A DNA stretch of 64,000 nucleotides, taken from assembly GCF_021568905.1 (NCBI RefSeq), contig NZ_JAKGSB010000003.1, positions 186,001-250,000 on the forward strand, written 5' to 3'. A model generated the notes under the pieces. That model worked only from the letters and a program-made list of their open reading frames with translations. It did not search any database and had not been told where the DNA came from. This DNA comes from Zavarzinia marina. Its GTDB lineage: Bacteria > Pseudomonadota > Alphaproteobacteria > Zavarziniales > Zavarziniaceae. This document shows, one piece after another, positions 21,136 through 37,774 of this stretch. Every line of letters starts with the position of its first letter. Position 1 is the first letter of the stretch. The position numbers and the translations under genes were made by a program.

Positions 21136-22920
21136 GTGCGGGGTCGATGGAATTGGGGAATGCTCGTCGGGCTGGTGCTTCTGCTGCTCGGCCAGCCCGG
21201 CATCGCGCTGGCGCGGACGCCCTATGCCTTCTCCCTGACCGGCATGCCGGACGAGACCACCCGCAACCTGTTCGAGGAGACGAGCGAGCTGATCGCCCGC
21301 AAGGACGAGCCGCCGCCCAGCCGCACGGCGCTGCGCAACCGCATCCGGGGCGATCTCGAACGGATCCGCCAGGTCCTGAACGCCTATGGCTATTTCGATG
21401 CCAGGATCGAGGTCGAGACCGACGAGGAGGCGGAGCCCGTGCCCGTCGCCGTCAAGGTGACGGCCGGTCCGCGCTATGACGTCGGCACCATCCGCATGAC
21501 CGATCCGGGCGGCGTCGCCCTCGGCCCCGGGCTGTCGCCGCCGCCCCTCCTCATGGCGCTGAAGGAAGGCCAGCCCTACGAGGCGCAGCCCGTGCTGGAC
21601 AGCGAAGGCACGATCCTCTCCTATCTCGGCCGCCAGGGCCGGCCCTTCGCCCGGGTCGATCACCGCGATGTCGTGCTGGACCGCGACGCCGGCGTGGTGA
21701 ACGTGACCTGGGCCATCGACTACGGTCCCCGCGTCACCTTCGGCCCGGTCCGCTTCGAGGGGCTGGAGCGCCTGAAGGACAAGCCGGCGCGCGCCCTGAT
21801 CCGCTGGGAGGAGGGCGAGATCGTCGACATCGACAAGGTCGAGGAGACGCGCCAGGCCTTCGTCGCCACCGGCCTGCTGCGCGGCGTGAACATCGACCTC
21901 GAACGCCCGCCGGCGGGCGGGACGGTGGCCCCGGTCCTGATCCGCCTGACGGAATCGCCGCCGCGCACCATCGGCGGCGGCATCCGCTATTCGACCAGCG
22001 AGGGCGCGGGCGTGCGCGCCTTCTGGGAACACCGCAACCTGCTGGGCGGGCGCGAATCGCTGCGCGTGACCGCCGATGTGGCGATGACCGGCTATTCCCT
22101 GGCGGCCAAGGCGAAGAAGCCGGATTTCGAATGGAACGGCGTCGATCTCGTGTTCCAGGCCGAGGCGGCGCAGGAGGAACTCGACGCCTACGACCGCGAC
22201 AGCCTTCTGATCGGCGGCGGCCTCGAATGGCGCTATTCGCCGCAATGGTTCTTTTCGGGCGGCCTGACCTTCGAGCAGAGCGCGATCGACGACAACGGCA
22301 AGACCGAGAACTACACCCTGTTCGGACTGCCCGTGGTGGCGCGCAACGATACCTCCAACGATGCCCTGGATCCGACCAACGGCCATCGCCTGACCTTCGC
22401 CCTGACACCCTATTACGACCTCGCGGGGACGGCGGGCACCTTCATCGTCGGCCAGGCCAGCGGTTCCACCTATCTGCCCCTCGACGATGCCGAGGATTAC
22501 GTGCTGGCACTGCGTGCGGCCCTCGGCGCCACCTTCGGCGGCTCCACCCTGTCGCTGCCGGCGGACAAGCGATTCTATGCCGGCGGCGGCAATTCGGTGC
22601 GGGGCTTCGCCTATCAGGCGGCCGGCCCGCTCGGCGTCGACGGCGATCCCCAGGGCGGCAAATCGATGCTGACCGGCGCCGTGGAATTGCGCTGGCGCGT
22701 GACCGAAAGCATCGGCGTCGTACCCTTCGTCGACGTCGGCAGCGTCTATGACGACAGCCTGCCCGACTTCGGTGCCGATCTCTTCATCGGCGCCGGCCTT
22801 GGGCTGCGCTATCGCTCGCCCATCGGGCCGCTGCGCCTCGACGTGGCGACGCCGGTCTCGGGCAAGCGCGACAGCGACGATATCGTGCAGATCTATATTT
22901 CCATCGGCCAGGCGTTCTGA
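21136..22920 (+). CDS. tamA: Translocation and assembly module outer-membrane protein TamA
   Basis: TamA is a BamA-like outer-membrane protein that works with TamB in envelope assembly or lipid transport. POTRA-like segments fill about residues 30-260, and a 16-strand barrel follows. GGGNSVRGFAYQ is the characteristic VRGF motif, and the C-terminus ends in a strand with a terminal phenylalanine. The frame is open from an ATG at 21082, but the GTG at 21136 follows an AGGGGGGA site and gives a proper signal peptide (VRGRWNWGMLVGLVLLLLG), so I chose it; the product has 594 residues. tamB follows 13 bases later. Confidence 0.92.
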   Translation: MRGRWNWGMLVGLVLLLLGQPGIALARTPYAFSLTGMPDETTRNLFEETSELIARKDEPPPSRTALRNRIRGDLERIRQVLNAYGYFDARIEVETDEEAEPVPVAVKVTAGPRYDVGTIRMTDPGGVALGPGLSPPPLLMALKEGQPYEAQPVLDSEGTILSYLGRQGRPFARVDHRDVVLDRDAGVVNVTWAIDYGPRVTFGPVRFEGLERLKDKPARALIRWEEGEIVDIDKVEETRQAFVATGLLRGVNIDLERPPAGGTVAPVLIRLTESPPRTIGGGIRYSTSEGAGVRAFWEHRNLLGGRESLRVTADVAMTGYSLAAKAKKPDFEWNGVDLVFQAEAAQEELDAYDRDSLLIGGGLEWRYSPQWFFSGGLTFEQSAIDDNGKTENYTLFGLPVVARNDTSNDALDPTNGHRLTFALTPYYDLAGTAGTFIVGQASGSTYLPLDDAEDYVLALRAALGATFGGSTLSLPADKRFYAGGGNSVRGFAYQAAGPLGVDGDPQGGKSMLTGAVELRWRVTESIGVVPFVDVGSVYDDSLPDFGADLFIGAGLGLRYRSPIGPLRLDVATPVSGKRDSDDIVQIYISIGQAF

Positions 22921-22933
22921 GGGAGGCGACGGC

Positions 22934-25900
22934 ATGACCACCCCGAACCCTGCCCCGAACCCCACGCCCAATCCGAACCCCAGGCCCGATCCCGCGCGGA
23001 AGCGGCGCCTGCCCCGCGCCCTGAAATGGACCGGGATCACGCTGGCCGTGCCCCTCGTCCTGATCGGCGCGGTCCTCGGCGCGCTGCAGGTGCCGGCGGT
23101 GAAGACCATGATCGCCGAACAGGTTTCGGACATGGTCTCCGGCCCCGATTTCGCCCTGAAGCTGGACGGGCTTTCGGGCGGCATGCCTTTCGGCCCGCGT
23201 CTCGCCCGGGTCGAACTGGGCGACGGGGACGGCACATGGCTGGTGCTGGAGCAGGCCGCCGTCTCCCTAGATCCCTGGGCCCTGATCGGCGGGCGCATCC
23301 ATGTCGAAAAGGTCGAGGCGGAACGCCTCACGCTCCACCGCCTGCCCGCCGGCGGTGCCGAGGAAACGCCGCCCAGCGACGAGCCGATGGATCTTTCGGT
23401 GCCGAGCCTGCCCAAGGGGCTCGCCGTCGACCGGCTCGCGGTCGCGGAGATCGTGCTCGATCCCGCCGTGGCGGGGGAGGCGACGCGCCTCGCCCTGAAC
23501 GGGCGTCTCGGCGTCGACGACGCGGGGGCGGCCGGGCTGACCCTGGCCCTCTCCCCCCTCGAAGGGGAGCACGCGCCGCGCCTCGACGTCGAAGCCCTGC
23601 ACCGGCCGGCGGACGACGTGCTGACCCTCAACCTCGTGCTGGACGAACCGGCGGGGGGGCCGATCTCGCGCATCGCCGGCCTGCCCGGCGACCGCCCCAT
23701 CCATCTCGCCGTCGAAGGCGAAGGCCCTCTCACCGCCTTCGATGCCAGGATCGAGGCCGCCGCGGCCGGTGCCGGCCTCGACGGGCGTCTGCAGCTGGCG
23801 CGGACGGCGGAAGGCATCGCCCTCGCCCTGGTGGCCAAGGCCGATCCCGGCCCCTTCGCCCCGCCCGAGATCGCGCCCCTGCTGGCGGGCGAGGCGCCGG
23901 GGCTCGACATCGGCCTCGAGGCCGAAATGGCCGGATCGCGCCTTCTCCTGCGCGGCCTGACGCTGGCGGCAAACGGCCTCGCCCTCAAGGCCGACGGTCT
24001 GTTGGAGGATGGGCGCGACGCCTCCCTCAACGCGACCATCGATCTGGCGCCCGACGCCGATCTGCCGGCCCTGGCCGCCGTGCCGCCGGCGCTCCGCCCC
24101 GGCCGGGTGACGCTGGCCGCCGTCGCCGCCCTCGATACCGGCCATGTCGAGGTCTCGCGCCTCGGGGTCGAGGCACCGGGGGCGGCGATCGCCGGCACCT
24201 TGGCATTGGCCGAGCATTTCGACGGCCTGACCGGCACTTTCGACGTCGCCCTGCCCAGGCTGGCGGATCTGCCGGCGGGCGGGCTCACCGGGGGGGCGAC
24301 GGCGCGCCTCTCGGTCGATGGCATGCTGGCGGACCCGGATCTCGGCTTCTCGGTCGCGATCGCGGGCAAGGACATCGGCGGCGCGGACGAGGATCCGCTG
24401 CCGCGGCTTCTGGGCGCCGCGCCCGACGTCACCCTGGCCGGGCGCTACGCGACGGCCGGCATCACGGTCGAGACGCTGGCGCTGCGCACCGCCGCCGCCA
24501 CGCTCGACGCTTCCGGCCGTTTCGATCCGGCCGACGGCGCGATCGAGGCCAAGCTCGCCCTGGTGGCGGAGGATCTGGCCCGGCTCGAGGCGGGCGGCAT
24601 ATCGGGCAGCGCCCATGTCGACGGTACCGTCGGCGGCACCATCGACCTGCCGGTGATCGATCTCACCGTCGACGGCAAGGCTCTGTCCGTCGGCGGCACC
24701 GAAGTCGGCGACCCCAGCCTGGTCATGAAGGCGACACCCGATCCCGCCGCCGGCACCTCGAGCGGGCGTTTCGATCTGGCGCTGGGCGGGGCATGGCCGG
24801 TCGCTCTCGGCGCCGATCTCCTGTTCGACGGCGAAAGGGCGGTGGTCAGCGCCATCGACGGCACCGCCCTCGGTGCCAGGATCGGCGGCGACGTCGCCTA
24901 TGGCCTGGAGACGGGGGAGATTACGGGCGGCCTGAAGATCGCGGCCGCGCGGCTCGACGGCTTTTCCGCCCTCGCCGGGCAGAAGCTGGCCGGGGCCTTG
25001 AACATCGATCTCGCGCTGGCGCCCCGGAACGGTGGCCAGGGCGCCGACCTGACCCTGGACGGGCGCGACATCGCCGCCTCGGGCGTCACCGTGGGCCGGC
25101 TTTCGGCCAAGGCGGCGCTGGACGATCTGCTGGGCGCCGGGCGCGGCCGGGCCGAGGTGACGGCGAGCGCCGTCGCCAGCGGCAAGGCCGTGATCGACCG
25201 CCTCGCCGCCAAGGCGGATCTCGCGTCCTTCGACAATGTCGCCTTTACCGTGGATCTTGCGGGCGGCGTGCCGGCGCCGCTCGGCCTTTCGGGCAAGGGC
25301 AGTTTCGATGCCCGGGGGGCCGTACCGCAACTGACCGTCGCGAAGCTCGACGGGCAATTGGCCGAGACGCCCTTCGGGCTGCGCAAGCCGCTCACGGTCG
25401 CGCTCGGCCCCCAGACGGCGGTGAGGGACATCGCGCTCGCCTTCGGCAAGGCCCGGGCGGAGGGTGGCGTCACGCTCGGTCGGGCGATGGCCGGCAAGCT
25501 GTCGGTCACCGGCTTCGATTTCGCCGATCTCGCCGGCCTGATGCCGGCGGCGGATCTGCCCGGGGGCACGGTCGACCTGACCCTCAGCCTCGACGGTGCC
25601 GCGGGCGAACTGACGCTGGCGGGGCGCGGGCTGCGCCCGCCGGCCTCGGTGGTCGACGTCGCCGTGGCCGACATGCCGCGCCCCGATCTGGATGCCACCA
25701 TCAAGTGGCGGCGTAATCAGGCGGATCTCGATCTCGCCGTCACCGGCATCCGCGAGGCCGAGATCAGGGCAACCGGCACCATTCCCGTGCGCATCGACGG
25801 CGGCATCCCCATGCCGGACGAAAAGGGCGCGATGGACGTCGCGCTCCAGGTGAACGCCAATCTGCGCCGGCTGGCGCCCCTGCTCCCCCTCGGCGACAAC

Positions 25901-27154
25901 GAGATCCGGGGCCGGCTGGCCGTGGACGCCCGTGTCGGCGGCAGCGTCGGCGCGCCGGAGCCGACCGGGCGCCTGACCCTGAGCAAGGGACGCTTCACCA
26001 ACGGTCTGTCCGGCTTCGAACTGCGCGACATGGAGATGGCGCTGGCCTTCACCGGGGAAAGCGCCACCATCGAAAGCCTGACCGCGACCGACGGCGAGGG
26101 CGGCACGCTAACCGGCACCGGCTCCGCCCGGCAGACGGCGGACGGCGATTTCGCCCTCGACGCGGCGATCAAGGCCGTGGGCCTGCGCTTCACCCGACTC
26201 GATCTCGCCACCACCTCGGGCGACATCGACATGACGGTCAAGGGCACCGCGACCGCGCCCGAGGTGACGGGCAAGGTGGTGATCCAGCGCGGCAACGTCG
26301 AAATCTCGGCCAGGGTCCCGGTCTCCGTGCCGGTGGTCGAGGTGCGCGATGCCGGCGGCGGCCAGGCGCCGACGGATCTGTCGGTGCCCGGCGGCGACGC
26401 GAAGGGCAAGCCTCCGGCGGTCGGCCATATCGACCTCACGGTCGAGGCGCCGGGGCAATTCTTCGTCCGGGGCCGGGGCCTCGATTCCGAATGGCGCGGC
26501 AACCTGAAACTGGCGGGGCCGATCACCGCGCCGGATGCGCGCGGCGGCTTCGAGGTGGTGCGCGGCACCTATACGCTGGCGGGCCGGCCCTTCGCCATTT
26601 CCGAGGGATCGCTGACCTTCCCTTCGGGCCTCGGGGCGCCGCCGCAGATCACGGTGATCGCCTCCGCCCCGGCGGACGACGTCGAGGCCAAGATCGCCAT
26701 CACCGGCCCGGTGACCGCCCTGAAGATCGACCTGTCGTCGGAACCGGCGCTACCCAACGACGAAGTGCTGAGCCGGGTGCTGTTCGGGCGTTCCGTCGCC
26801 AATCTGACCACCAGCCAGGCGATCCGTCTCGGCCAGACGGCGCTGGAGCTGAGCGGCAAGGGCGGCGGCGACGTCCTGGGCGGGGTGCGCGACGCGCTCG
26901 GCCTCGATCGGCTGGACATCGGCTCGGACGACAGCGCCGACACCAGCGGTTCGGGCGGCGCCCTGGCGGGCACCAGCCTGTCGGCCGGGCGCTATATCGC
27001 CGACGGCGTCTATCTCGGGTTCGAGCAGGGGCTGACACCCAATTCGGGCTCGGTCAACATCGAGGTCGAGGTCTATCCCCGGGTCACCGTCGAGGGCAGC
27101 ATCGGCCAGGCCGACAGTTCCGCCGTCGGCCTCAACTACAAGTTCGACTATTAG
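22934..27154 (+). CDS. tamB: Translocation and assembly module inner-membrane protein TamB
   Basis: TamB is an AsmA-like giant that spans the periplasm from an N-terminal inner-membrane helix to TamA. The 1,406-residue protein has a transmembrane helix around residues 35-55. A long repetitive beta-taco region rich in Gly, Ala, Leu and Asp follows. The conserved C-terminal DUF490 domain contains EPALPNDEVLSRVLFGRSV and ends NYKFDY, with a terminal aromatic residue as expected. The first 25 residues are an Asn-Pro-rich cytoplasmic tail. GGAGG precedes the ATG at 22934. The gene is adjacent to tamA, as in most proteobacteria. Confidence 0.95.
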   Translation: MTTPNPAPNPTPNPNPRPDPARKRRLPRALKWTGITLAVPLVLIGAVLGALQVPAVKTMIAEQVSDMVSGPDFALKLDGLSGGMPFGPRLARVELGDGDGTWLVLEQAAVSLDPWALIGGRIHVEKVEAERLTLHRLPAGGAEETPPSDEPMDLSVPSLPKGLAVDRLAVAEIVLDPAVAGEATRLALNGRLGVDDAGAAGLTLALSPLEGEHAPRLDVEALHRPADDVLTLNLVLDEPAGGPISRIAGLPGDRPIHLAVEGEGPLTAFDARIEAAAAGAGLDGRLQLARTAEGIALALVAKADPGPFAPPEIAPLLAGEAPGLDIGLEAEMAGSRLLLRGLTLAANGLALKADGLLEDGRDASLNATIDLAPDADLPALAAVPPALRPGRVTLAAVAALDTGHVEVSRLGVEAPGAAIAGTLALAEHFDGLTGTFDVALPRLADLPAGGLTGGATARLSVDGMLADPDLGFSVAIAGKDIGGADEDPLPRLLGAAPDVTLAGRYATAGITVETLALRTAAATLDASGRFDPADGAIEAKLALVAEDLARLEAGGISGSAHVDGTVGGTIDLPVIDLTVDGKALSVGGTEVGDPSLVMKATPDPAAGTSSGRFDLALGGAWPVALGADLLFDGERAVVSAIDGTALGARIGGDVAYGLETGEITGGLKIAAARLDGFSALAGQKLAGALNIDLALAPRNGGQGADLTLDGRDIAASGVTVGRLSAKAALDDLLGAGRGRAEVTASAVASGKAVIDRLAAKADLASFDNVAFTVDLAGGVPAPLGLSGKGSFDARGAVPQLTVAKLDGQLAETPFGLRKPLTVALGPQTAVRDIALAFGKARAEGGVTLGRAMAGKLSVTGFDFADLAGLMPAADLPGGTVDLTLSLDGAAGELTLAGRGLRPPASVVDVAVADMPRPDLDATIKWRRNQADLDLAVTGIREAEIRATGTIPVRIDGGIPMPDEKGAMDVALQVNANLRRLAPLLPLGDNEIRGRLAVDARVGGSVGAPEPTGRLTLSKGRFTNGLSGFELRDMEMALAFTGESATIESLTATDGEGGTLTGTGSARQTADGDFALDAAIKAVGLRFTRLDLATTSGDIDMTVKGTATAPEVTGKVVIQRGNVEISARVPVSVPVVEVRDAGGGQAPTDLSVPGGDAKGKPPAVGHIDLTVEAPGQFFVRGRGLDSEWRGNLKLAGPITAPDARGGFEVVRGTYTLAGRPFAISEGSLTFPSGLGAPPQITVIASAPADDVEAKIAITGPVTALKIDLSSEPALPNDEVLSRVLFGRSVANLTTSQAIRLGQTALELSGKGGGDVLGGVRDALGLDRLDIGSDDSADTSGSGGALAGTSLSAGRYIADGVYLGFEQGLTPNSGSVNIEVEVYPRVTVEGSIGQADSSAVGLNYKFDY

Positions 27155-27160
27155 AGGCGG

Positions 27161-27679
27161 CTAGTCGAACAGGGCCGATGCGCGCTTGGCGAAATGGCGG
27201 CGATAGCAGCTCTCGACCGCGCCGGCCGTCGTCGACGTGCCCTTCAGGTCGATGCTCCAGGCGCGGCCGTCGGCCAGGGTGAGACGCATGGTGTTGCCGG
27301 CGCGGAACGCCTTCCAGAACGCCTTGTCGAAGCCGAAGCCCGCGCGCAGTTCCCGGTTCGAGACCACGGTCATGCTGGTGAAACGGTCGTAGGCGCCGGC
27401 GATCACCACCTCGACCGCCGAGCGGCCGTCGGTGTCCATCTGCCAGTCGTCGTTCTCGAGATGCAGGTTGAAGCCGCCGTCATAGGCCCGCAGGCCCAGC
27501 GTCATGCCGTCCTTGAACCTGGTCTCGACGCTGCAATGGCTGAAGGCGCCGTCGTCGTTTTCATAGGCATAGGCGGTCCAGAAGCCCTCGACCACCTTGT
27601 CCAGCCGCTTGCCGGCCAGCGCCTGGGTCGCGGCAGCGGTCAGCACCAGGGCCAAGAGGCAGGAAAGGATGGATCGCAT
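27161..27679 (-). CDS. Small secreted protein, tandem paralogue A
   Basis: I do not recognise the family. The 172-residue product has a signal peptide ending around TQALA (residue 22). The mature part starts GKRLDKVVEGFWTAYAYEND and is clearly similar to the gene just upstream (27694-28236), including FWTxYAYxNDDGxFxHC, ETRFxDG, MRLxLADGRxW and LKG. Two cysteines are shared by both proteins and may form a disulfide (inference). The longer frame to 28069 overlaps the paralogue and is rejected. It is 6 bases from the convergent tamB end and probably co-transcribed with its paralogue. Confidence 0.8.
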   Translation of the reverse strand: MRSILSCLLALVLTAAATQALAGKRLDKVVEGFWTAYAYENDDGAFSHCSVETRFKDGMTLGLRAYDGGFNLHLENDDWQMDTDGRSAVEVVIAGAYDRFTSMTVVSNRELRAGFGFDKAFWKAFRAGNTMRLTLADGRAWSIDLKGTSTTAGAVESCYRRHFAKRASALFD

Positions 27680-27693
27680 GGCTGTGCTCCCCT

Positions 27694-28236
27694 TTATTTG
27701 AACATGCCCTTGCGGCCTTCGGGCGAATAGAGGTCGTAGCAGAGGGTGAGCGCCTGGGTCGCCTTGTTGGAACCCTTCAGGCTGACGTTCCAGGACCGCC
27801 CGTCCGCCAGTTCCAGCCGCATTTCGAGACCGGCCTTGAAGGCGCTCCAGAACTCGGGATCGAAGCCGATGCCGGCGATCATGGCGTCGTCGCCCGCGAA
27901 ACCGACGGGCAGGGCGTTGCTGTAGCGCCGGTCGATCCGGACGGTCATCGACGAGCGTCCGCCCGGCTTCAACCGCCAGGCATCGTTCAGCATGACGATG
28001 TTGACGCCGTTCGTCGCCAGCAGGATGGCGAGCATCAGGCCGTCGTCGAAGCGCGTTTCCATGCCGCAATGGCCGAAGCTGCCGTCGTCGTTCTGATAGG
28101 CGTAGGTGGTCCAGAAACCGGACGAGAATTCATCGACCCGGCGCCCGGCATGGGCAGGCACCGCGCCGAGGGACAGCGCCAGGACCAGTGCCGCGGCGGC
28201 GCGCGCGGCTCGGCTGAAGATCGCGGAAAATGTCAT
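27694..28236 (-). CDS. Small secreted protein, tandem paralogue B
   Basis: The product has 180 residues and a signal peptide ending near PAHA (residue 30). It shares a pattern of conserved aromatic, Asp/Gly and Cys residues with the product of 27161-27679, of which it is a tandem duplicate; the two genes are separated by 14 bases. No enzyme motif is visible, so it is more likely a binding or structural periplasmic protein. It lies downstream of the alpha-E/ATP-grasp operon on the same strand, beyond a terminator-like hairpin. That makes it a possible but unproven partner of that system. Confidence 0.8.
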   Translation of the reverse strand: MTFSAIFSRAARAAAALVLALSLGAVPAHAGRRVDEFSSGFWTTYAYQNDDGSFGHCGMETRFDDGLMLAILLATNGVNIVMLNDAWRLKPGGRSSMTVRIDRRYSNALPVGFAGDDAMIAGIGFDPEFWSAFKAGLEMRLELADGRSWNVSLKGSNKATQALTLCYDLYSPEGRKGMFK

Positions 28237-28347: not shown

Positions 28348-29319
28348 TCAGGCCGCCTGGTCGGGCGTCGCCGAATGGCCGAAGAACGACATGCCGAGAT
28401 CGTCGGTGATGGAGATCAGCTGCAACTGCACCCAGTCCAGGAATTCGTGCAGCCCGCCGCCCAGCACCATCTCGATCGAGCGGTTGGCGAGGGTGCCGCG
28501 AATGCCGTCGAGGATTTCCAGGGTGCGGTTGCCCGCCCGCAGGCCGTAGCGCTGGCGCAGGCGCATGACGATCTCGTCGATCTGGGCGACGCAGACCGCC
28601 AGCGAGCGCGGGAAGGCCGGGTTGAAGATCAGGAAGCCGGCGACCGAGGCCGGGCTCATGCCGCGCGGCTGGACCCGGCGATAGGCGTGATAGCCGGCGG
28701 CGGAGCGCAGAAGCGCGTTCCACTGCGACACATCGAGGGGGGAGCCCACCTCGGCGGCGCTCGGCAGCAGCATGTGATACTTGATGTCGAGCATGCGGGT
28801 ACTTTGGTCCGCGCGTTCCAGAAGCTTGCCGAGCTGATAGAAATACCAGCCCTCGTCGCGGTACAGCGTGCCTTCCAGGATGCCGGTGTGGGTCTGGCAG
28901 CCTTCCTTGATCTTGCTGCACACCCGCGAGAGATCGGCGCGGCCGACCTCGACCGGGCTCAGACCCTTCATCCAGGCATGGAACATGTTGATCTGCGTCC
29001 ACAGCTCGGTCGAGATCAGCGGGCGCAGCGTGCGGGCGTTGTCCCGGGCCATCTTCAGGCACGACAGGATCGAGCTCGGGTTCTCGGCATCCAGCATATA
29101 GTAGTGGATCACCGTGTTCGCGGTCGCGGCCTGGTGCTTCTTGAAGAAGGGTTCGGCATCGGCGTGCAGATGCACGATCGACAGCCAGTTCTGCGAGCCG
29201 CGCGCGTCGCGGCTGAAGGTCTCGTTGACGTCGAGAATACGCGCCAGGTTCTCGGCCCGCTCCATATTGCGGGCGAGCCAGAACATGTCTTCGGCGAAAC
29301 GGGCAAGAAGTCTAGCCAA
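28348..29319 (-). CDS. Stand-alone alpha-E domain protein (DUF403)
   Basis: Alpha-E proteins are all-helical and always accompany circularly permuted ATP-grasp enzymes; their exact role is unknown. The 323-residue product has the signature N-terminus FAEDMFWLARNMERAENLAR. The start is TTG, overlapping the end of the ATP-grasp gene by 8 bases, and family alignment supports it (MxxRxAxxMFWLxRxxERA). An ATG at 29286 would cut into the conserved helix. It is the last gene of the five-gene operon and a paralogue of the C-terminal part of the fused protein at 31723-34344. Confidence 0.9.
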   Translation of the reverse strand: MARLLARFAEDMFWLARNMERAENLARILDVNETFSRDARGSQNWLSIVHLHADAEPFFKKHQAATANTVIHYYMLDAENPSSILSCLKMARDNARTLRPLISTELWTQINMFHAWMKGLSPVEVGRADLSRVCSKIKEGCQTHTGILEGTLYRDEGWYFYQLGKLLERADQSTRMLDIKYHMLLPSAAEVGSPLDVSQWNALLRSAAGYHAYRRVQPRGMSPASVAGFLIFNPAFPRSLAVCVAQIDEIVMRLRQRYGLRAGNRTLEILDGIRGTLANRSIEMVLGGGLHEFLDWVQLQLISITDDLGMSFFGHSATPDQAA

Positions 29320-30751
29320 GCACCCACGTGTCTTTCGACCCGCCTCCCTGGCTGGAGTTGACGACGAGCGAGCCGCGACGCATCGCGACCCGGGTGAGAC
29401 CGCCGGGCAGGACCCAGGTGGATTTGCCGGTGATGGCGAAGGGGCGGAGATCGACGTGGCGGGGTTCGACCTCGCCCTCGACCAGGGTCGGGCAGACCGA
29501 GAGCTGGATCGTCGGCTGGCTGATGTAGTTCGCCGGATCCTTCAGGAGATTGGCGCGGCAGGCCTCCAACTCCTCCTGACTCGCCTTCGGGCCGACCGTG
29601 ATGCCATAGCCGCCGGATTCGGCCACCGGCTTGACGACGAGCTTGTCGAGATTATCGAGCGTATAGGCCAGCGCGTCGGGTTCGCGGCAGATGAAGGTCT
29701 CGACATTGTCGAGGATCGGATCCTGCTGCAGATAGTATTTGATCAGGCGCGGCATATAGGCATAGACCGCCTTGTCGTCGGCGACGCCGGTGCCGACCGA
29801 ATTGGCCAGCGCCACATTGCCGGCCCGGAGCGCCCGCATCAGGCCCGGCACGCCCAGGGTCGATTCGGGGCGGAACACCTCGGGATCGAGAAAATCGTCG
29901 TTCAGGCGCCGGTAGATCGTGTGCACCGGCTCCAGCCCGCCGGTGGTCTTCATGTAGACGCGGTCGTTCTCGACGACGAGGTCGCGGCCCTCGACCAGGG
30001 GCACGCCCATCTCGCGGGCGAGGAAGATGTGCTCGAAATAGGCGGAATTGTAGGTGCCCGGCGAGAGCAGCACGACCTGCGGGTCGGTGATCTCCTCCGG
30101 CGCGATCTCGACCATGGCCTCCTGCAGCTTGGGGCCATAGTTGTCGACCGGGCGGATCGAGATGTCGGTGGTCATGTCCGGGAAGGCCCGCAACATCATG
30201 TTGCGGTTCTCGAGCACGTAGGACACGCCCGACGGGGTCCTGGCATTGTCCTCGAGCACCATGAAGCGGCCGTTGTCGTCCCTGACGAGGTCGATGCCGC
30301 AGATGCTGGCATAGGCGTTGTGGGGCACCTTCACGCCGATCATGGCGGGCTGGAAGTTGCTGTTCTGCAGCACCAGTTCCGGCGGGATCAGGCCGTCCTT
30401 CAGGACGTGCTGGGGCCCGTAGATATCGGCCAGGAACAGGTTTATGGCGGTAACCCGCTGAATTACCCCGGCCTCCAGCCAGGCCCAGTCCTCCTTGCTG
30501 ATCACCCGGGGGATCACGTCGAACGGCAGGATGCGGTCGATCGCGTCCTTTTCCGAATAGACGGTGAAGGTGATGCCGAGGTTGTAGAGTTCGCGTTCAG
30601 CATCCTCGGCGCGGCGCTGGAGGGCATCCAGATCCAGTTCGGCGAGGCGCTCGCGGATGGCTGCCGTGTGTTCTGCGGGCGGGGTTCCCGAACTCCCCAT
30701 GATCTCGCAAAAGAAAGGTCCGTGATCGTATCGGGAGAGAATGCCGCTCAT
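29312..30751 (-). CDS. Circularly permuted type 2 ATP-grasp protein
   Basis: Members of this family (DUF404/DUF407) are predicted to form amide bonds by an acyl-phosphate route, probably building a peptide or peptide tag. The 479-residue product keeps the expected active-site elements: EDN at 167-169 in VLEDNARTPSGVSY, LKD-containing GPQHVLKDGLIPP, Lys374 in LVVKPVAESGGYG with its Gly-rich loop, and HVDLRPF near residue 432. AGAGGA precedes the ATG. It overlaps the alpha-E gene and stands downstream of a transglutaminase gene. The substrate is unknown. Confidence 0.9.
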   Translation of the reverse strand: MSGILSRYDHGPFFCEIMGSSGTPPAEHTAAIRERLAELDLDALQRRAEDAERELYNLGITFTVYSEKDAIDRILPFDVIPRVISKEDWAWLEAGVIQRVTAINLFLADIYGPQHVLKDGLIPPELVLQNSNFQPAMIGVKVPHNAYASICGIDLVRDDNGRFMVLEDNARTPSGVSYVLENRNMMLRAFPDMTTDISIRPVDNYGPKLQEAMVEIAPEEITDPQVVLLSPGTYNSAYFEHIFLAREMGVPLVEGRDLVVENDRVYMKTTGGLEPVHTIYRRLNDDFLDPEVFRPESTLGVPGLMRALRAGNVALANSVGTGVADDKAVYAYMPRLIKYYLQQDPILDNVETFICREPDALAYTLDNLDKLVVKPVAESGGYGITVGPKASQEELEACRANLLKDPANYISQPTIQLSVCPTLVEGEVEPRHVDLRPFAITGKSTWVLPGGLTRVAMRRGSLVVNSSQGGGSKDTWVLG

Positions 30752-30829
30752 CCAAGTCCTCTCTTCATCCCGATGTCGAGCCTAGCAAACTCGATCGATG
30801 CACCGCATCAAAAATCGGCAGATCCGGCG

Positions 30830-31726
30830 CTAGACCTTCGGTGCTGCCTCATTCTTGACCGGCACCACGTCGACCCCGACCTGAAGCCGGTGCGGGCCGC
30901 CGCCGACGATGATGCCGCGCAAGGGCGCGACATCGTCGTAGTCGCGGCCGTGGGCGACGGTGATGTGGTCGAGGGAGGGGATGCAGTCGTTGGTCGGGTC
31001 GAATTCCAGCCAGCGGTCGCCGCCGATCCAGACCGCAACCCAGGCGTGGGACTGGTCGGCGCCGACGAGGCGCGGCCGGCCCGGCGGCGGCGTCGTCCGC
31101 AGGTAACCGCTGACATAGCGGGCCGGCAGCCCGACCGAGCGCAGGCAGGCGATCATCAGATGGGCGAAATCCTGACACACGCCGCGTTTCACCTCCAGGA
31201 CCTCGCTCGGCGGCGTGGTCACCGTGGTCGCCTGCGGGTCGAAGGCGAATTCCTCGTGAATGCGGCTGGTCAGGGCGCGGACGGCGGCCACGATCGGACG
31301 CCCCGGCGTGAAATCGGGCGCCGCATAGTCGGCGAATTCGGCCGCCGCCTCGACCAGGGTCGAATCCTGGCGGAAGGTATGGATGGACAAAGTGTCGGGC
31401 GCCGCCTCGTCGAGACGGGCGCGGAGCAGGTCCCAGGCCGGGCAATCCTCGTCGGCGGGCGGTTTCGCCGCCTTGATCTCGATCTCGATCACGGATTCGA
31501 CGATCAGGCGCTGATGCGGCTCCTCCATGGCGAACTGGACGATGGGATTGCCGAAGCCGTCCGTCCGTTCGTTCCAGGTCGAAGGTTCCGGCACCACCCG
31601 CAACTCGTGCTTCAGCAATCTCTGGCGCGCGCTGTCGCGCGGCTTCAGATGCGCCAGATGGTGGGACAGGGTGACCGGATCGCCATAGTCGTAGACCGTG
31701 TTGTGGCGGGCCTGATAGCGGATCAT
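30830..31726 (-). CDS. Transglutaminase-like protein
   Basis: This 298-residue protein has a transglutaminase-like cysteine protease fold. The catalytic triad is visible: Cys184 in KRGVCQDFAHLM, His227 in DQSHAWVAVW and Asp243 in LEFDPTNDC. The N-terminal beta domain starts MIRYQARHNTVYDY, typical of bacterial family members found with ATP-grasp/alpha-E genes. Such enzymes are thought to hydrolyse or transfer peptide bonds, here perhaps processing the ATP-grasp product. There is no signal peptide, so it should be cytoplasmic. Its start overlaps the stop of the fused ATP-grasp-alpha-E gene (ATGA), showing tight coupling. Confidence 0.93.
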   Translation of the reverse strand: MIRYQARHNTVYDYGDPVTLSHHLAHLKPRDSARQRLLKHELRVVPEPSTWNERTDGFGNPIVQFAMEEPHQRLIVESVIEIEIKAAKPPADEDCPAWDLLRARLDEAAPDTLSIHTFRQDSTLVEAAAEFADYAAPDFTPGRPIVAAVRALTSRIHEEFAFDPQATTVTTPPSEVLEVKRGVCQDFAHLMIACLRSVGLPARYVSGYLRTTPPPGRPRLVGADQSHAWVAVWIGGDRWLEFDPTNDCIPSLDHITVAHGRDYDDVAPLRGIIVGGGPHRLQVGVDVVPVKNEAAPKV

Positions 31727-34344
31727 GGCGTGCTCACCGTGCGGATCGGGCCGCCCGGCCGGACCGCCAGGGCATGGCTGAAATAGGTCTGGGAAATGAT
31801 GTCGGACAGTTCGGGCAGGGTGACGCTGACCGCTTCGAGAAGGGCTTCGAGCTCGCTGTTGCGGCCGTCGGCGCCGGCCCCGGCCAGGCGCTGGATCTCC
31901 GCCGCGCGCAATTCGGCGAGCGCGGTCTGGGCCAGCAGGCGGGCGGCGCCCGAGCCGAAGGCGCCGCGTTCGCGCGGCAGATTCTCGACGTGGTCGGCCA
32001 GCGCCCACATCTGGCGCGCCAGCGAGCGCGGATTGGCCTCGTCCAGCAGCAGGAGGTCGAGCACCGGGGCGAATTGCGCGCCGGTGAAATAGCGCGCGCG
32101 ATAGGTCATGAAGCTGTCGGCCACCTCGAGCGCGAGGTCGAGGGCGCGATTCTCCCCGTCCTCGCCGCCGATGATGAGGTCGCGGGTCAGCGAGATGGCG
32201 CAGACCGCCCTCTCGATGCGCCGGCCGAGATCCATGAAGCGCCAGGCCTGGCCCCGGGTCATGTTCTCCATGCCGAGGCCGGACAGCGCCGCCATGGAGG
32301 CGACGATCGAATCGAAGCAGTCGAGCAGGCCGACGTAATCGCCCGGCGTCGCCTTGCCCACTTCCTCGATCTGGCCGTGCAGATGCAGGAGGACGCGGGT
32401 CATGTCGACCGACAGGCGGTCGCGCACCATGCCGGTGTTCATGTTCAGGCGCCGGACCGCCGAGGCGAAGCCGCCGGCGCGGAATTCGTCGATCAGCATG
32501 GGCAGGAGCTCGGCGTCGAAAGCCTCCCGGTCCGTGGTCGCCAGTTCCGCCAGTTCGGGCGTGATTTCGCCGATCGAGGCAAGGAAGGCGACGCCCGGCC
32601 CGATCTCGACATTGCCCTGGGGGCCGCCGCCGTCGGTCAGGCGCTGGATGACGGCACGAAGGGCGCGGACGCCGAATTCGGCACGCTCGGCATAGCGCCC
32701 GACCCAATAGAGATCGTCGGCCACGCGGCTCGGCAGATTGTTGCCCTGGCGCCGGACCTCGACCGCGGTATCGGGCGGGCGCAGCAGGCTGAATTGTTCG
32801 ACCGGGCCCGACGACAGCACCCAGGCATCCTTCGAAAGCCCGCTCTGCTGCAGGTGCAGGATGGGGCGGTCGGTGGTCGGCGCGATCCGCACCAGGCCGC
32901 CGGGCATGACCGAAAAGCCCTTCTCCGTCGCGGTCAGGAAGGCGCGCAGCACCACGGGGCGCGGGCGCACCCCTTCCGGCGTGAAGCAGGGCGCGGTCGA
33001 CAGCCGGACCGGCGCCTGGCCGACGGCGTCATAGGGCCGGTAGTCCAGGTGCCGGCCCCAGGCCTCGCCGTCCCCGGGCGCGGGCACGCCGATGCGCGGA
33101 AAGGCCGGGCGCAGCGCGTAATTGCCGCCGGTCGCGGTCAGCCGCGCGCGGCCCTGGGCCTCGCCCGCCCAGACCGTGTCCAGATTGGGCAGCGCCAGTT
33201 CCTCGCCCAGCAGATGCCGCGACAGGGCGGGCAGATAGGGGATGATGGCCGGCGTCTCGGCGAGGCCCGAACCCAGCGCATTGGCGACCACGACATGGCC
33301 GGCCAGCACCGCCTGCACCAAGCCGGCGACGCCGAAGGGCGAATCGCCGCGCAGTTCCAGGGGGTCGCAGAAATCGTCGTCGACCCGGCGCAGGATGACG
33401 TCGACCGGCTCCAGCCCGCCCAGCGTCTTCAGGAAGACGCGGTCGCCGCGCACCGTCAGGTCGTTGCCCTCGACCAGCGTATAGCCGAGATAGCGCGCCA
33501 GATAGGCGTGTTCGAAATAGGTCTCGTTGTAGGGGCCGGGCGTCAGAAGGACGATGCGGGGATAGCGCGTCCAGGGCGCCAGCGCGCGCAGCGTCTGGCG
33601 CAGGCGGTCGAACCAGGCGGCGAGGCGCTTCACCTTGATGGCGCGGTAGGCCTCCGCCAGGGAGCGCGAGGTGATGATGCGGTTCTCGAGGGCGTAGCCG
33701 GGGCCGGCCGGGGTCCGCGTCCGGTCGCCGACGACCAGCCAGCGCCCATCCGGCCCGCGCACCAGATCGACGGCATAGACATGCAGCCAGATGTCGCCCG
33801 GGGCGCGAAAACCCCGCAGGGCCCGCAGATAGTCGGGATTGCCCTCGACCACGCCGGGATGCAGCACGCCGTCCTTCAGGCTGCGCTGCTCGCCGTAGAG
33901 ATCGGCCAGCAGGCTGTTCATCAGGCGCGCGCGCTGGATCAGGCCGGCCTCGACCTCCGCCCATTCGGCTTCGGAAATGACGAGCGGCACGAGATCCAGC
34001 TCGATCGCGCGGGCGGCGTTGCGGGGATCGCCATAGACATTGTAGGTGACGCCATTGTCGTGCAGGAGCTGGCGCGCGCGTTCCGTCCGCTCGCCGAATT
34101 CGCCCGGACCGAAAGCCGAGAGATTCTCGAACAGCTCGCGCCAGTGCGGGCGCAGATGGGCATCGGCGTCGACGCATTCGTCGAAGACGCCGGGCTGGGG
34201 CAGATAGCGGCCCACGGCCTGCGGTTCGCCGGCGGCGGCACCGCCGGGCAGGGGCAGGGGGATTTGCGCCCCGTCCTCGGGGCCTTGGGGTTCGATCGCC
34301 AGACTCACGCGGGCCATCGTATCAGGCAGGTCGGGCGCCGCCAT
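31723..34344 (-). CDS. ATP-grasp-alpha-E fusion protein
   Basis: The 873-residue protein fuses a circularly permuted ATP-grasp module (about residues 50-520) to an alpha-E module (about 535-870, starting RVADDLYWVGRYAERAEFG). Both halves are paralogues of the stand-alone proteins downstream. The ATP-grasp half looks degenerate: where the stand-alone copy has LEDN this has VGDR, and where it has KPVAESGGYG this has RPAFPRIGVP. The alpha-E half looks intact. The ATG at 34344 was chosen over 34359 because the latter is too close to its AGGA. It is the second gene of the operon, and it may serve as a scaffold or regulator (inference). Confidence 0.9.
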   Translation of the reverse strand: MAAPDLPDTMARVSLAIEPQGPEDGAQIPLPLPGGAAAGEPQAVGRYLPQPGVFDECVDADAHLRPHWRELFENLSAFGPGEFGERTERARQLLHDNGVTYNVYGDPRNAARAIELDLVPLVISEAEWAEVEAGLIQRARLMNSLLADLYGEQRSLKDGVLHPGVVEGNPDYLRALRGFRAPGDIWLHVYAVDLVRGPDGRWLVVGDRTRTPAGPGYALENRIITSRSLAEAYRAIKVKRLAAWFDRLRQTLRALAPWTRYPRIVLLTPGPYNETYFEHAYLARYLGYTLVEGNDLTVRGDRVFLKTLGGLEPVDVILRRVDDDFCDPLELRGDSPFGVAGLVQAVLAGHVVVANALGSGLAETPAIIPYLPALSRHLLGEELALPNLDTVWAGEAQGRARLTATGGNYALRPAFPRIGVPAPGDGEAWGRHLDYRPYDAVGQAPVRLSTAPCFTPEGVRPRPVVLRAFLTATEKGFSVMPGGLVRIAPTTDRPILHLQQSGLSKDAWVLSSGPVEQFSLLRPPDTAVEVRRQGNNLPSRVADDLYWVGRYAERAEFGVRALRAVIQRLTDGGGPQGNVEIGPGVAFLASIGEITPELAELATTDREAFDAELLPMLIDEFRAGGFASAVRRLNMNTGMVRDRLSVDMTRVLLHLHGQIEEVGKATPGDYVGLLDCFDSIVASMAALSGLGMENMTRGQAWRFMDLGRRIERAVCAISLTRDLIIGGEDGENRALDLALEVADSFMTYRARYFTGAQFAPVLDLLLLDEANPRSLARQMWALADHVENLPRERGAFGSGAARLLAQTALAELRAAEIQRLAGAGADGRNSELEALLEAVSVTLPELSDIISQTYFSHALAVRPGGPIRTVSTP

Positions 34345-34456
34345 GAAAATCCCGATCATTCCTAGAGCGAATTGTTGCAGTCAATTCGCCGATCACGATG
34401 CAGTCAATTTCGCGAGTCCTCCCCGAAAGCGTCGGCTTCCGGGGAAGAGGTGCCGC

Positions 34457-37400
34457 CTATTGCCGGCGCAGGTCCAGCGTCAGCGGGAATTCCTTCGAGA
34501 TTTCGACCGGCCCCAGGGTCATCGGACCCGGGGTGTGGCCGAAGCTGAAGAAGCGCGACAGGCGCCGGCCTTCCGCCTCATAGGCGTTGACCGGTGCCGT
34601 TACATAGTTGCGCCCGCCGGGATGCGAGACGTGATAGGTGCAGCCGCCGATCGCGCGGTTCGACCATTCGTCGACGATGTCGAACACCAGCGGTCCATGG
34701 GGCGGAATCGTCGGATGCAGGGCGGAGGCCGGCTGCCACGCGCGGAAGCGCACGGCGGCGACATATTCGCCCTCCCGCCCGGTCGAGGTCAGGGGCACGC
34801 GCATGCCGTTGACGGCAACCGCGTGGCGGCCGTCGGTCATGCCGTTCACCTTCACCTGGATGCGTTCGACCGAACTGTCGACGAAACGCACCGTGCCGCC
34901 GGCGAAGCCTTCCTCGCCCAGCACGTGCCAGGGCTCCAGCGCCTGACGCAGCTCGAGGGTCAGGCCGCGCTGATGGATGGTGCCGTAGTGCGGGAAGCGG
35001 AACTCGAAATGGGGATCCAGCCATTCGCGCTCGAAGGTGAAGCCCCATTGCTGGAGATCCGCCACCACGTCGTCCAGGTCTTCCGCGACGAAATGGGGCA
35101 GCAGGAAGCGGTCGTGCAGTTCCGTGCCCCAGCGCACCAGGCGCGCCGGATAGGGATGGTCCCAGAAATGCGCGATCAGGGCCCGCAGGATCAATTGCTG
35201 CACGCAGGACATGCGGGCGTGCGGCGGCATTTCGAAGGCGCGCAGTTCGAGAAGGCCGAGCCGGCCGGACGAGGAATCGGGCGAGAACAGCTTGTCGATG
35301 CAGAACTCGGAGCGATGGGTGTTGCCGGTCACATCCGCCAGCAGGTGGCGGAACAGGCGATCGACCAGCCAGGACGGCACGTCCGTATGGTCGGGCACCT
35401 GACGGAAGGCGATCTCGAGCTCGTAGAGCGAATCATGGCGCGCCTCGTCGATGCGCGGCGCCTGACTGGTCGGGCCGAGGAACATGCCCGAGAACAGATA
35501 GGAGAGGCTCGGGTGGTTCTGCCAGTAGCACAGCAGGCTGCGCAGCAGGTGCGGCCGGCGCAGGAACGGGCTGTCCTCCGGCCGGGCGCCGCCGACCACG
35601 ATGTGGTTGCCGCCGCCGGTGCCGACATGGCGCCCGTCGATCATGAATTTCTCGGAGGCGAGGCGGGTCTCGCGCGCGTCGTCGTAGAGGGTGGTGGTGA
35701 TGTCCACCAGCTCGCGCCACGACCGCGACGGGTGGATGTTCACCTCGATCACGCCCGGATCCGGCGTCACCATGATGTTCTTCAGGCGCCAGTCCTTGGG
35801 CGGGCCGTAACCTTCCAGGATCACCGGCATGTCGAGGGCGATCGCCGTCTCCTCGATCTTCTCGATCAGGTCGACCCAGGCTTCGAGATAGGATTGCGGC
35901 GGCATGAAGATATAGAGCCGCCCGTTCCGGATCTCGACCGAGAGCGCGGTGCGGATGACGCCGGGCATGGAGACGCCGACGAAATTGCCCTGGGGCGCGA
36001 AGGGTTGCATCGGGTCCGGCGGCGGCAGCGGCCGCACCGGCAGGCGCCCGGGCACCTGGGCGACGGGGCCGGAGGCGGTGGTCGGCAGGGGCGGGCGCGG
36101 GGCGAAGGGATCTTCCTCGAAGTGGTAGGGATAATCCTCCTTCTTCACCCAGGGCAGGCTCTGCAGCGGCAGGCGATAGCCGACCGGCGAATCGCCCGGG
36201 GTCAGGAAGACGCGCTTCGAACGGAACTTCCAGGGTTTCGCCTGCCACAGCGGGCCGTCGACGGTCATCCAGCATTCGAGCGGCAGGACGAAGCCGGTGG
36301 GCGTGTCGAGGCCCTGGTCGAAGACGCGGCTCATGCGCTCGCGCTCCTCCTTGTCCTCGATGTGGTTCTCCAGGGGATCGACGTTGACCGGCAGGCGCCG
36401 CTCGCGCCACATCCAGTACCAGGGGTCCTCGAAGGCGGCGATCGTATTCTCGGGCGAGACCTTCAGCTTGTCGGCGAGGGTCATGAGAAAGGTTTCGCCC
36501 TGTTCCAGGGTGAAGCCGTAGTTCACGTTCTCGTCGCCCAGATATTTCGGGTTCTGCCATAGCGGCTCGCCGTCGGCGCGCCAGAAGCAGCCGAGCGCCC
36601 AGCGCGGCAGGCTTTCGCCCGGATACCACTTGCCCTGGCCATAATGCAGCACGCCGCCCGGGGCGTAGCGATTCTTGAGCTTGTGGACGAGGGTATTGGC
36701 GAGGCCGCGCTTGGTCGGGCCGAGTGCCTCGGTATTCCACTCGCCACCGTCGAAATCGTCGATCGAGACGAAGGTCGGCTCGCCGCCCATGGTCAGGCGC
36801 ACGTCGCCCGCCACCAGCTTCTCCTCGACCGCGTCGCCGGAGGCGACGATCCGCTCCCATTGCTCCTCGGTATAGGGCTTGGTGACGCGGGCCGCCTCGA
36901 CGATGCGGGTGATCGACATGGAGAAGTCGAATTCGACTCCGGCCTCGTCGACGGCGCCGGTGATGGGCGCGGCGCTGCCCGGCTCGGGCGAGCAGGCGAG
37001 CGGCAGATGGCCCTCGCCCGCGAAGAGGCCCGAGGTCGGATCGAGGCCGACCCAGCCGGCCCCCGGCAGATAGACTTCGGTCCAGGCGTGGAGATCGGTG
37101 AAGTCGACCTCGGTGCCGGAGGGGCCGTCCAGCGACTTCACGTCGGGCGCGAGCTGGATCAGGTAACCCGAGACGAAACGCGCGGCCAGCTTCAGGTGGC
37201 GCAGCAGATGCACCAGCAGCCAGGCCGAATCGCGGCACGAGCCCTTCTGCAGGGTCAGGGTCTCTTCCGGGGTCTGCACGCCCGGTTCCATGCGGATCAC
37301 GTAGGACACATGGCGATGCACGAGGCGGTTCAGATCGACCAGGAAGTCGACCGTACCGCGCTGGCGCCGGTCCACCTTGGCCAGAAGGGCGGTGAGTTCG

Positions 37401-37774
37401 GGGCCCGGCGGCGGCACCTCCAGATAGGGCTTCAACTCGTGCGCCAGATGCGGCTCATAGGCGAAGGGCGCGCGTTCCGCGGCCTTTTCCAGGAAGAAGT
37501 CGAAGGGGTTGATGATCGCCATCTCGGCGACCAGATCGACCTCGACCTCGAATTCCCGGGTCTTTTCGGGAAAGACGACGCGGGCGAGATAGTTCGACTG
37601 CGGATCCTGCTGCCAGTTCAGGAAATGGACGGTCGGGGTGATTCGCAGCGAGTATCCGGTTACCGGGGTCCGGCAATGCGGCGCGGGGCGCAGCCGGATG
37701 GTCTGTGGACCGAGGTTGACCAGACGGTCGTATTTGTAGGTCGTCTTGTGATTGAGGGCCACCCTGATGGTCAT
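34457..37774 (-). CDS. Large transglutaminase with DUF2126 domain
   Basis: The 1,105-residue protein begins with a transglutaminase domain: Cys180 in QKGSCRDSAWLLVH, His229 in TDLHAWTEVYLP and Asp245 in VGLDPTSGLF. From about residue 300 it continues as the long DUF2126 region (TMGGEPTFVSIDDFDGGEWN, HVGTGGGNHIVVGG, and DKLFSPDSSSGRLGLLELRA), which is always linked to this system. It is cytoplasmic. The ATG at 37774 has GGAGC upstream and gives MTIRVALNHKTTYKYDR, the common family start. It opens the five-gene operon. DUF2126 has no assigned activity; a role in recognising or binding the peptide product is guesswork. Confidence 0.92.
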   Translation of the reverse strand: MTIRVALNHKTTYKYDRLVNLGPQTIRLRPAPHCRTPVTGYSLRITPTVHFLNWQQDPQSNYLARVVFPEKTREFEVEVDLVAEMAIINPFDFFLEKAAERAPFAYEPHLAHELKPYLEVPPPGPELTALLAKVDRRQRGTVDFLVDLNRLVHRHVSYVIRMEPGVQTPEETLTLQKGSCRDSAWLLVHLLRHLKLAARFVSGYLIQLAPDVKSLDGPSGTEVDFTDLHAWTEVYLPGAGWVGLDPTSGLFAGEGHLPLACSPEPGSAAPITGAVDEAGVEFDFSMSITRIVEAARVTKPYTEEQWERIVASGDAVEEKLVAGDVRLTMGGEPTFVSIDDFDGGEWNTEALGPTKRGLANTLVHKLKNRYAPGGVLHYGQGKWYPGESLPRWALGCFWRADGEPLWQNPKYLGDENVNYGFTLEQGETFLMTLADKLKVSPENTIAAFEDPWYWMWRERRLPVNVDPLENHIEDKEERERMSRVFDQGLDTPTGFVLPLECWMTVDGPLWQAKPWKFRSKRVFLTPGDSPVGYRLPLQSLPWVKKEDYPYHFEEDPFAPRPPLPTTASGPVAQVPGRLPVRPLPPPDPMQPFAPQGNFVGVSMPGVIRTALSVEIRNGRLYIFMPPQSYLEAWVDLIEKIEETAIALDMPVILEGYGPPKDWRLKNIMVTPDPGVIEVNIHPSRSWRELVDITTTLYDDARETRLASEKFMIDGRHVGTGGGNHIVVGGARPEDSPFLRRPHLLRSLLCYWQNHPSLSYLFSGMFLGPTSQAPRIDEARHDSLYELEIAFRQVPDHTDVPSWLVDRLFRHLLADVTGNTHRSEFCIDKLFSPDSSSGRLGLLELRAFEMPPHARMSCVQQLILRALIAHFWDHPYPARLVRWGTELHDRFLLPHFVAEDLDDVVADLQQWGFTFEREWLDPHFEFRFPHYGTIHQRGLTLELRQALEPWHVLGEEGFAGGTVRFVDSSVERIQVKVNGMTDGRHAVAVNGMRVPLTSTGREGEYVAAVRFRAWQPASALHPTIPPHGPLVFDIVDEWSNRAIGGCTYHVSHPGGRNYVTAPVNAYEAEGRRLSRFFSFGHTPGPMTLGPVEISKEFPLTLDLRRQ

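Follow-up and report, generated by a model that had tools for sequence, protein, structure and literature searches.

In the 64,000-nucleotide window of Zavarzinia marina analyzed here (contig NZ_JAKGSB010000003.1, positions 186,001 to 250,000 of the forward strand), we identified a gene for a two-part protein, an ATP-grasp module fused to an Alpha-E domain, in which the catalytic residues of the ATP-grasp half are gone while its fold and the selection acting on it are retained, the combination that marks a pseudoenzyme. An intact, stand-alone ATP-grasp paralogue is encoded in the same apparent operon. We consider it probable, at roughly 0.6, that the fused protein is an ancient paralogue with no catalytic activity and that, as a subunit of the peptide-modification machinery encoded by the operon, it has a structural role or holds the substrate. 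The two proteins and the segments compared are:

31723..34359, minus strand: fused protein, 878 amino acids, with a pseudo-ATP-grasp module (approximately residues 56-516) and Alpha-E (approximately residues 542-860); Pfam PF14403 and PF04168; AlphaFold2 (AF2) model with a predicted local distance difference test score (pLDDT) of 85.7
33718..33771, minus strand: metal-site segment of the fused protein, residues 197-214 (VDLVRGPDGRWLVVGDRT); D198 retained, G211 and R213 in place of Glu and Asn
33079..33117, minus strand: ATP-lysine and glycine-loop segment of the fused protein, residues 415-427 (ALRPAFPRIGVPA); Lys replaced by Arg417, SGGYG gone and the loop shorter
31780..32736, minus strand: Alpha-E half of the fused protein, residues 542-860; PF04168; E-R motifs intact
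29312..30751, minus strand: stand-alone ATP-grasp protein, 479 amino acids; PF14403; active-site motifs intact

The fused open reading frame extends to 34359; position 34344, the boundary given in a preliminary description of this locus, corresponds to an alternative ATG in the same frame, five codons into the gene.

Active-site motifs and fold of the fused module

Both ATP-grasp modules score far above the PF14403 cut-off of 32 bits (540 bits for the stand-alone protein and 446 bits for the fused one), and both align with the solved structure 3n6x over their full length; the Alpha-E half of the fused protein reaches 217 bits for PF04168 against a cut-off of 20.8. In common alignment columns, the stand-alone motifs VLEDNARTPSG, VVKPVAESGGYG, RHVDLRPF and NSSQGGGSKD are matched by VVGDRTRTPAG, ALRPAFPRIGVP, RPVVLRAF and HLQQSGLSKD in the fused module, so that every substitution quoted in the preliminary description is present and falls where it should. 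Its remark that neighboring motifs are kept stands for DDF within this pair of modules but does not extend to the fused family, in which DDF is not conserved. The E-x-N metal-ligand pair of circularly permuted ATP-grasp ligases is thereby replaced by G211 and R213, and the ATP-binding Lys with its SGGYG loop by Arg417 and a shortened loop.

The fold itself has been kept, as the preliminary description had supposed: residues 56-516 of the AF2 model superimpose on 3n6x with a Z of 37.5 over 438 residues. In a profile search of solved-structure sequences, 3n6x was also the sole convincing match. This protein has its Pfam family and fold (PF14403/COG2308) in common with the fused module, yet carries LEDN, VVKEVQGSGGYG, RHVDLRPF and NSSQGGGTKD, none of which the fused module has. 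More distant matches, with Z of approximately 19-23, were to the ligases of the ATP-grasp fold represented by the synthetase domain of Escherichia coli GspS (glutathionylspermidine synthetase), YgiC and the eukaryotic-type glutathione synthetases; by comparison with GspS, the fused module of the window has Gly, Arg and Arg for E, N and K and is without the glycine-rich loop.

Residue roles were assigned with hhalign by aligning the stand-alone set and the fused set, each independently, against a GspS-type set. The two alignments paired D154/D198 (stand-alone/fused) with GspS D318, E167/G211 with E330, N169/R213 with N332, and K374/R417 with K533, consistently in columns but at a probability below 1%, so that the pairing carries weight only alongside the fold match. 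We take D318, E330 and N332 of GspS to be Mg ligands and K533 to be an ATP ligand. The E-x-N metal pair and the glycine-rich loop serve acyl-phosphate chemistry in the known relatives.

Losses across the fused family

We sampled the class and phylum of the window for fused and stand-alone modules and added 80 named loci from eight phyla (Pseudomonadota, Planctomycetota, Verrucomicrobiota, Acidobacteriota, Fibrobacterota, Vulcanimicrobiota (Eremiobacterota), Binatota and Thermodesulfobacteriota); a ninth phylum, Actinomycetota, is represented by one sequence (Tsukamurella) with a matching motif. The resulting 132 fused and 68 stand-alone modules over-represent Pseudomonadota and include near relatives, and weighting at 80% identity leaves approximately 101 fused and 51 stand-alone effective sequences. 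Beyond this sample, Mycobacterium tuberculosis Rv2567 is a further fused homologue.

Neither the Glu nor the Asn of VLEDN was found in any of the 132 fused modules, whereas both were present in all 68 stand-alone ones. GGYG, the H and D of RHVDLRPF, DDK and NSS followed the same division (0/132 fused; 66-68 of 68 stand-alone), and among all 200 sequences we found no fused protein with an intact metal site and no unfused protein without one. The position of the lost Asn is taken by Arg in 124 fused modules, within a replacement motif D-R-x-x-x-P-x-G (consensus DRTQAPSG) that occurs in 113 of the 132 and in none of the stand-alone proteins. A loss peculiar to this genome is thus ruled out, since the metal-pair and loop losses that the preliminary description had noted in one protein are shared by the fused proteins of other genomes (132/132). 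Its picture of metal ligands, lysine and loop changing together does not survive the same comparison: the ATP-binding Lys is still present in 71 of the 132, and either Lys or Arg in 107. The counterpart of D198 is likewise present in 119.

Two sets of sequences were checked as possible exceptions. Single-piece matches on Sinorhizobium plasmids (28% identity), taken up as a candidate intact fused variant, turned out to be a stand-alone ATP-grasp gene and a stand-alone Alpha-E gene that share a reading frame but are separate; read-through genome matches with one stop, only some of which were inspected, were likewise treated as separate genes. As a side observation, a divergent stand-alone ATP-grasp (L102:1527-2981) retains VLEDN with GGYG and HVD gone, and looks like an intermediate further paralogue.

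Across 117 enzyme-conserved columns, 53 are unchanged in the fused family (including D154, R436, K473 and D474 in stand-alone numbering), 54 are relaxed, and at the other 10 the enzyme residue has been switched for a different one that is conserved in turn. The switched columns, conserved in both groups with different residues and in the active-site motifs including Asn to Arg (0.92), Asp to Glu (0.92) and Ser to Gln (0.78), could be read to mean that the module is changed and not dead, and that the Arg and the switched residues allow it to bind a nucleotide, a phosphate or an acidic peptide independently of Mg2+ or to carry out another reaction. The unchanged columns and the frequent basic residue at the lysine position fit such a module, whereas the universal absence of the E-x-N pair and glycine-rich loop and the relaxation of almost half of the enzyme-conserved columns do not, and we regard it as unlikely.

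In a tree of 87 modules, built by a quick method with the active-site columns removed and the root not inferred, fused and stand-alone modules were separated by one split with a branch length of 1.32 and a Shimodaira-Hasegawa-like approximate likelihood ratio test (SH-aLRT) support of 100. With the metal pair in 0/132 fused modules, one supported branch and nine phyla, the fused proteins form a putative pseudoenzyme that is ancient and family-wide, and do not reflect a recent loss here. Because the split is a single event, the fact that fusion and loss always coincide is no proof that fusion caused the loss. The state of the lysine position changed at least seven times on the tree and Lys persists in more than half of the fused modules, so the Lys-to-Arg change in this lineage appears to have come later, separately from the loss of the metal site and loop. 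The likely origin is an operon duplication, after which its first two genes fused and the metal site was lost, since the order of pseudo-ATP-grasp/Alpha-E and then transglutaminase resembles that of an intact ATP-grasp, Alpha-E and transglutaminase operon.

Selection and the intact neighboring parts

Within the genus, the fused gene has a ratio of nonsynonymous to synonymous substitution rates (dN/dS) of approximately 0.2-0.28, compared with approximately 0.13-0.15 for its stand-alone paralogue; it is under purifying selection, and less constrained than that paralogue. The roughly twofold faster evolution is what might be expected of a functionless gene decaying after duplication, which would, however, need frameshifts or stops in most relatives. 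This is not what was seen: the fused frame is intact in the genus members fetched, and the replacement motif DRTQAPSG is conserved, the Alpha-E half is intact and the protein is maintained across nine phyla. We consider decay extremely improbable, and a neutral pseudogene is ruled out by dN/dS together with conservation across phyla.

Outside the ATP-grasp half, the E and R of the Alpha-E E-R motifs are retained in at least 129 of 133 fused proteins. The Cys-His-Asp triad of the downstream transglutaminase is likewise retained (Asp in 76 of 79), and the same triad was found in all 60 homologues of the upstream transglutaminase-DUF2126 protein. It is in the ATP-grasp half alone that the active site has been lost; the Alpha-E motif and the triads of both transglutaminases are intact.

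Genomic partners of the fused gene

Five neighboring minus-strand genes (28348-37774) form one apparent operon, in which the two ATP-grasp genes are accompanied by:

34457..37774, minus strand: transglutaminase-like protein with DUF2126 (putative amidoligase), 1105 amino acids; Pfam PF08379, PF01841 and PF09899; first gene of the operon
30830..31726, minus strand: transglutaminase-like protein (Pfam); C-H-D triad intact
28348..29319, minus strand: stand-alone Alpha-E, 323 amino acids; PF04168, 288 bits; overlaps the end of the stand-alone ATP-grasp gene

The TGA of the fused gene and the ATG of the downstream transglutaminase overlap by 4 nucleotides (ATGA). This adjacency is general: in all 78 named loci with enough sequence, the gene that immediately follows the fused one encodes a transglutaminase, and 58 of 74 loci have DUF2126 just upstream. 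Among 289 genomes of the class, the fused gene is present in 42, DUF2126 in 44 and both in 35. The fused-transglutaminase pair was retained in the four genomes inspected that have the fused gene and no DUF2126, and two DUF2126 genomes lacking the fused gene (loci L215 of G091 and L216 of G157) have an intact ATP-grasp and Alpha-E directly beside DUF2126. The closest genomic tie of the fused gene is thus to the downstream transglutaminase, followed by DUF2126, and not to the active copy.

The preliminary description had instead suggested that the fused protein may regulate or scaffold the active copy; a pseudoenzyme-enzyme heterodimer would be one form of such a partnership with the stand-alone ATP-grasp. 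Both copies do share one operon in the window, and an intact stand-alone copy accompanies the fused gene in 41 of the 42 genomes (the exception being an 84% complete assembly). The reverse does not hold: 68 of the 289 genomes have the intact copy with no fused gene, so the enzyme is independent of the fused protein, and of 80 named loci only 15 have an intact copy no more than 7 kb from the fused gene, which in contrast always has the transglutaminase for a neighbor. A partnership aimed at the active copy therefore seems doubtful to us.

Proposed role and relation to known systems

We propose that the fused protein would be unable to perform Mg-ATP ligation and would keep a peptide substrate, or Alpha-E, close to the transglutaminase and, where present, the DUF2126 ligase, with the ATP-dependent amide bonds presumably made by the stand-alone ATP-grasp and DUF2126. 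Several points weigh against this role. The scaffold step is suggested by gene order, and the assignment of residue roles has the low hhalign probability given above. The p of 1e-29 for the co-occurrence of the fused gene with DUF2126 treats related genomes as independent, and DUF2126 is no obligate partner, given 7 genomes with the fused gene and no DUF2126 and 9 with DUF2126 and no fused gene. Lastly, nucleotide or phosphate binding by the fused module may persist, because the D198 counterpart and a basic residue at the lysine position are so often kept.

A bolder version of the proposed subunit role is possible, and we offer it tentatively: with a nearly fixed Arg in place of its metal site, the paralogue may have become a dedicated subunit that binds a non-ATP ligand or presents substrate, tied to the transglutaminase and usually to the DUF2126 ligase in a nitrogen-starvation peptide-modification pathway, which would make it an unrecognized functional class in at least nine phyla.

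The families and the operon are already known. A predicted peptide-synthesis or tagging (amidoligase) operon comprising ATP-grasp, Alpha-E, transglutaminase, DUF2126 and Anbu is attributed to Iyer et al. 2009 in passages of PMC5666114 and PMC6376114. By Pfam, the window holds a gene set of this type as one cluster, with two transglutaminases beside ATP-grasp, Alpha-E and DUF2126, and differs from that operon by its extra fused pseudo-ATP-grasp and by the lack of Anbu in the genome, where the single PF00227 match is HslV beside HslU and there is no second proteasome-family protein. HslV/HslU (G000:C13:166046-166561) thus occurs here without Anbu, despite most of the Anbu-type gene set being in the genome. 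The stand-alone ATP-grasp is put forward as the amide-bond maker because it is a homologue of the Yersinia bercovieri Anbu operon protein, which is of the stand-alone type and was observed to release phosphate from ATP (PMC6376114).

As in enzyme/pseudoenzyme pairs in general, an intact and a degenerate paralogue are found in one operon with the degenerate one conserved; here, the degenerate copy never occurs alone in the near-complete genomes of the sample, with the pairing seen at the level of genes. The candidate novelty would be an ancient and widespread paralogue pair of this kind. Our search of the open literature found no statement of the fused copy as a pseudoenzyme or inactive ATP-grasp, although Iyer et al. 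2009, which lay outside that search, may already note it. An NCBIfam search gave no match. Plasmid records give both copies one label, "circularly permuted type 2 ATP-grasp protein", so fused copies are easily mistaken for ligases; the metal-site signature (E-x-N in stand-alone versus x-D-R in fused proteins) tells the two classes apart at once. ATP-dependent ligation would be expected from the stand-alone ATP-grasp and DUF2126, with the fused protein as a possible transglutaminase partner.

Conditions for a phenotype are suggested by nitrogen-limitation responses in Burkholderia and Pseudomonas: a Burkholderia DUF404-DUF407/DUF403/transglutaminase cluster is under NtrC/sigma-54 control (PMC5491218), and Pseudomonas putida PP_2685 and PP_2688 respond to nitrogen source (PMC8050072). 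Scans of the window for sigma-54 and NtrC sites gave nothing above chance.

Other genes and matches in the window

The Alpha-E half of the fused protein (31780-32736) matched helices of cytochrome bd oxidase and alternative complex III with a Z of approximately 10, which may reflect only a common helical-bundle arrangement. Just downstream of the operon, two adjacent small, similar proteins with signal-like N-termini (GRRVDEFSSGFWTTYAY..., GKRLDKVVEGFWTAYAY...) are encoded on the minus strand at 27694-28236 and by a related frame in 27161-28069; the first had only a sub-threshold IalB match. Convergent to these small genes is the end of a gene for a large TamB protein (PF04357) on the plus strand at 22748-27154.

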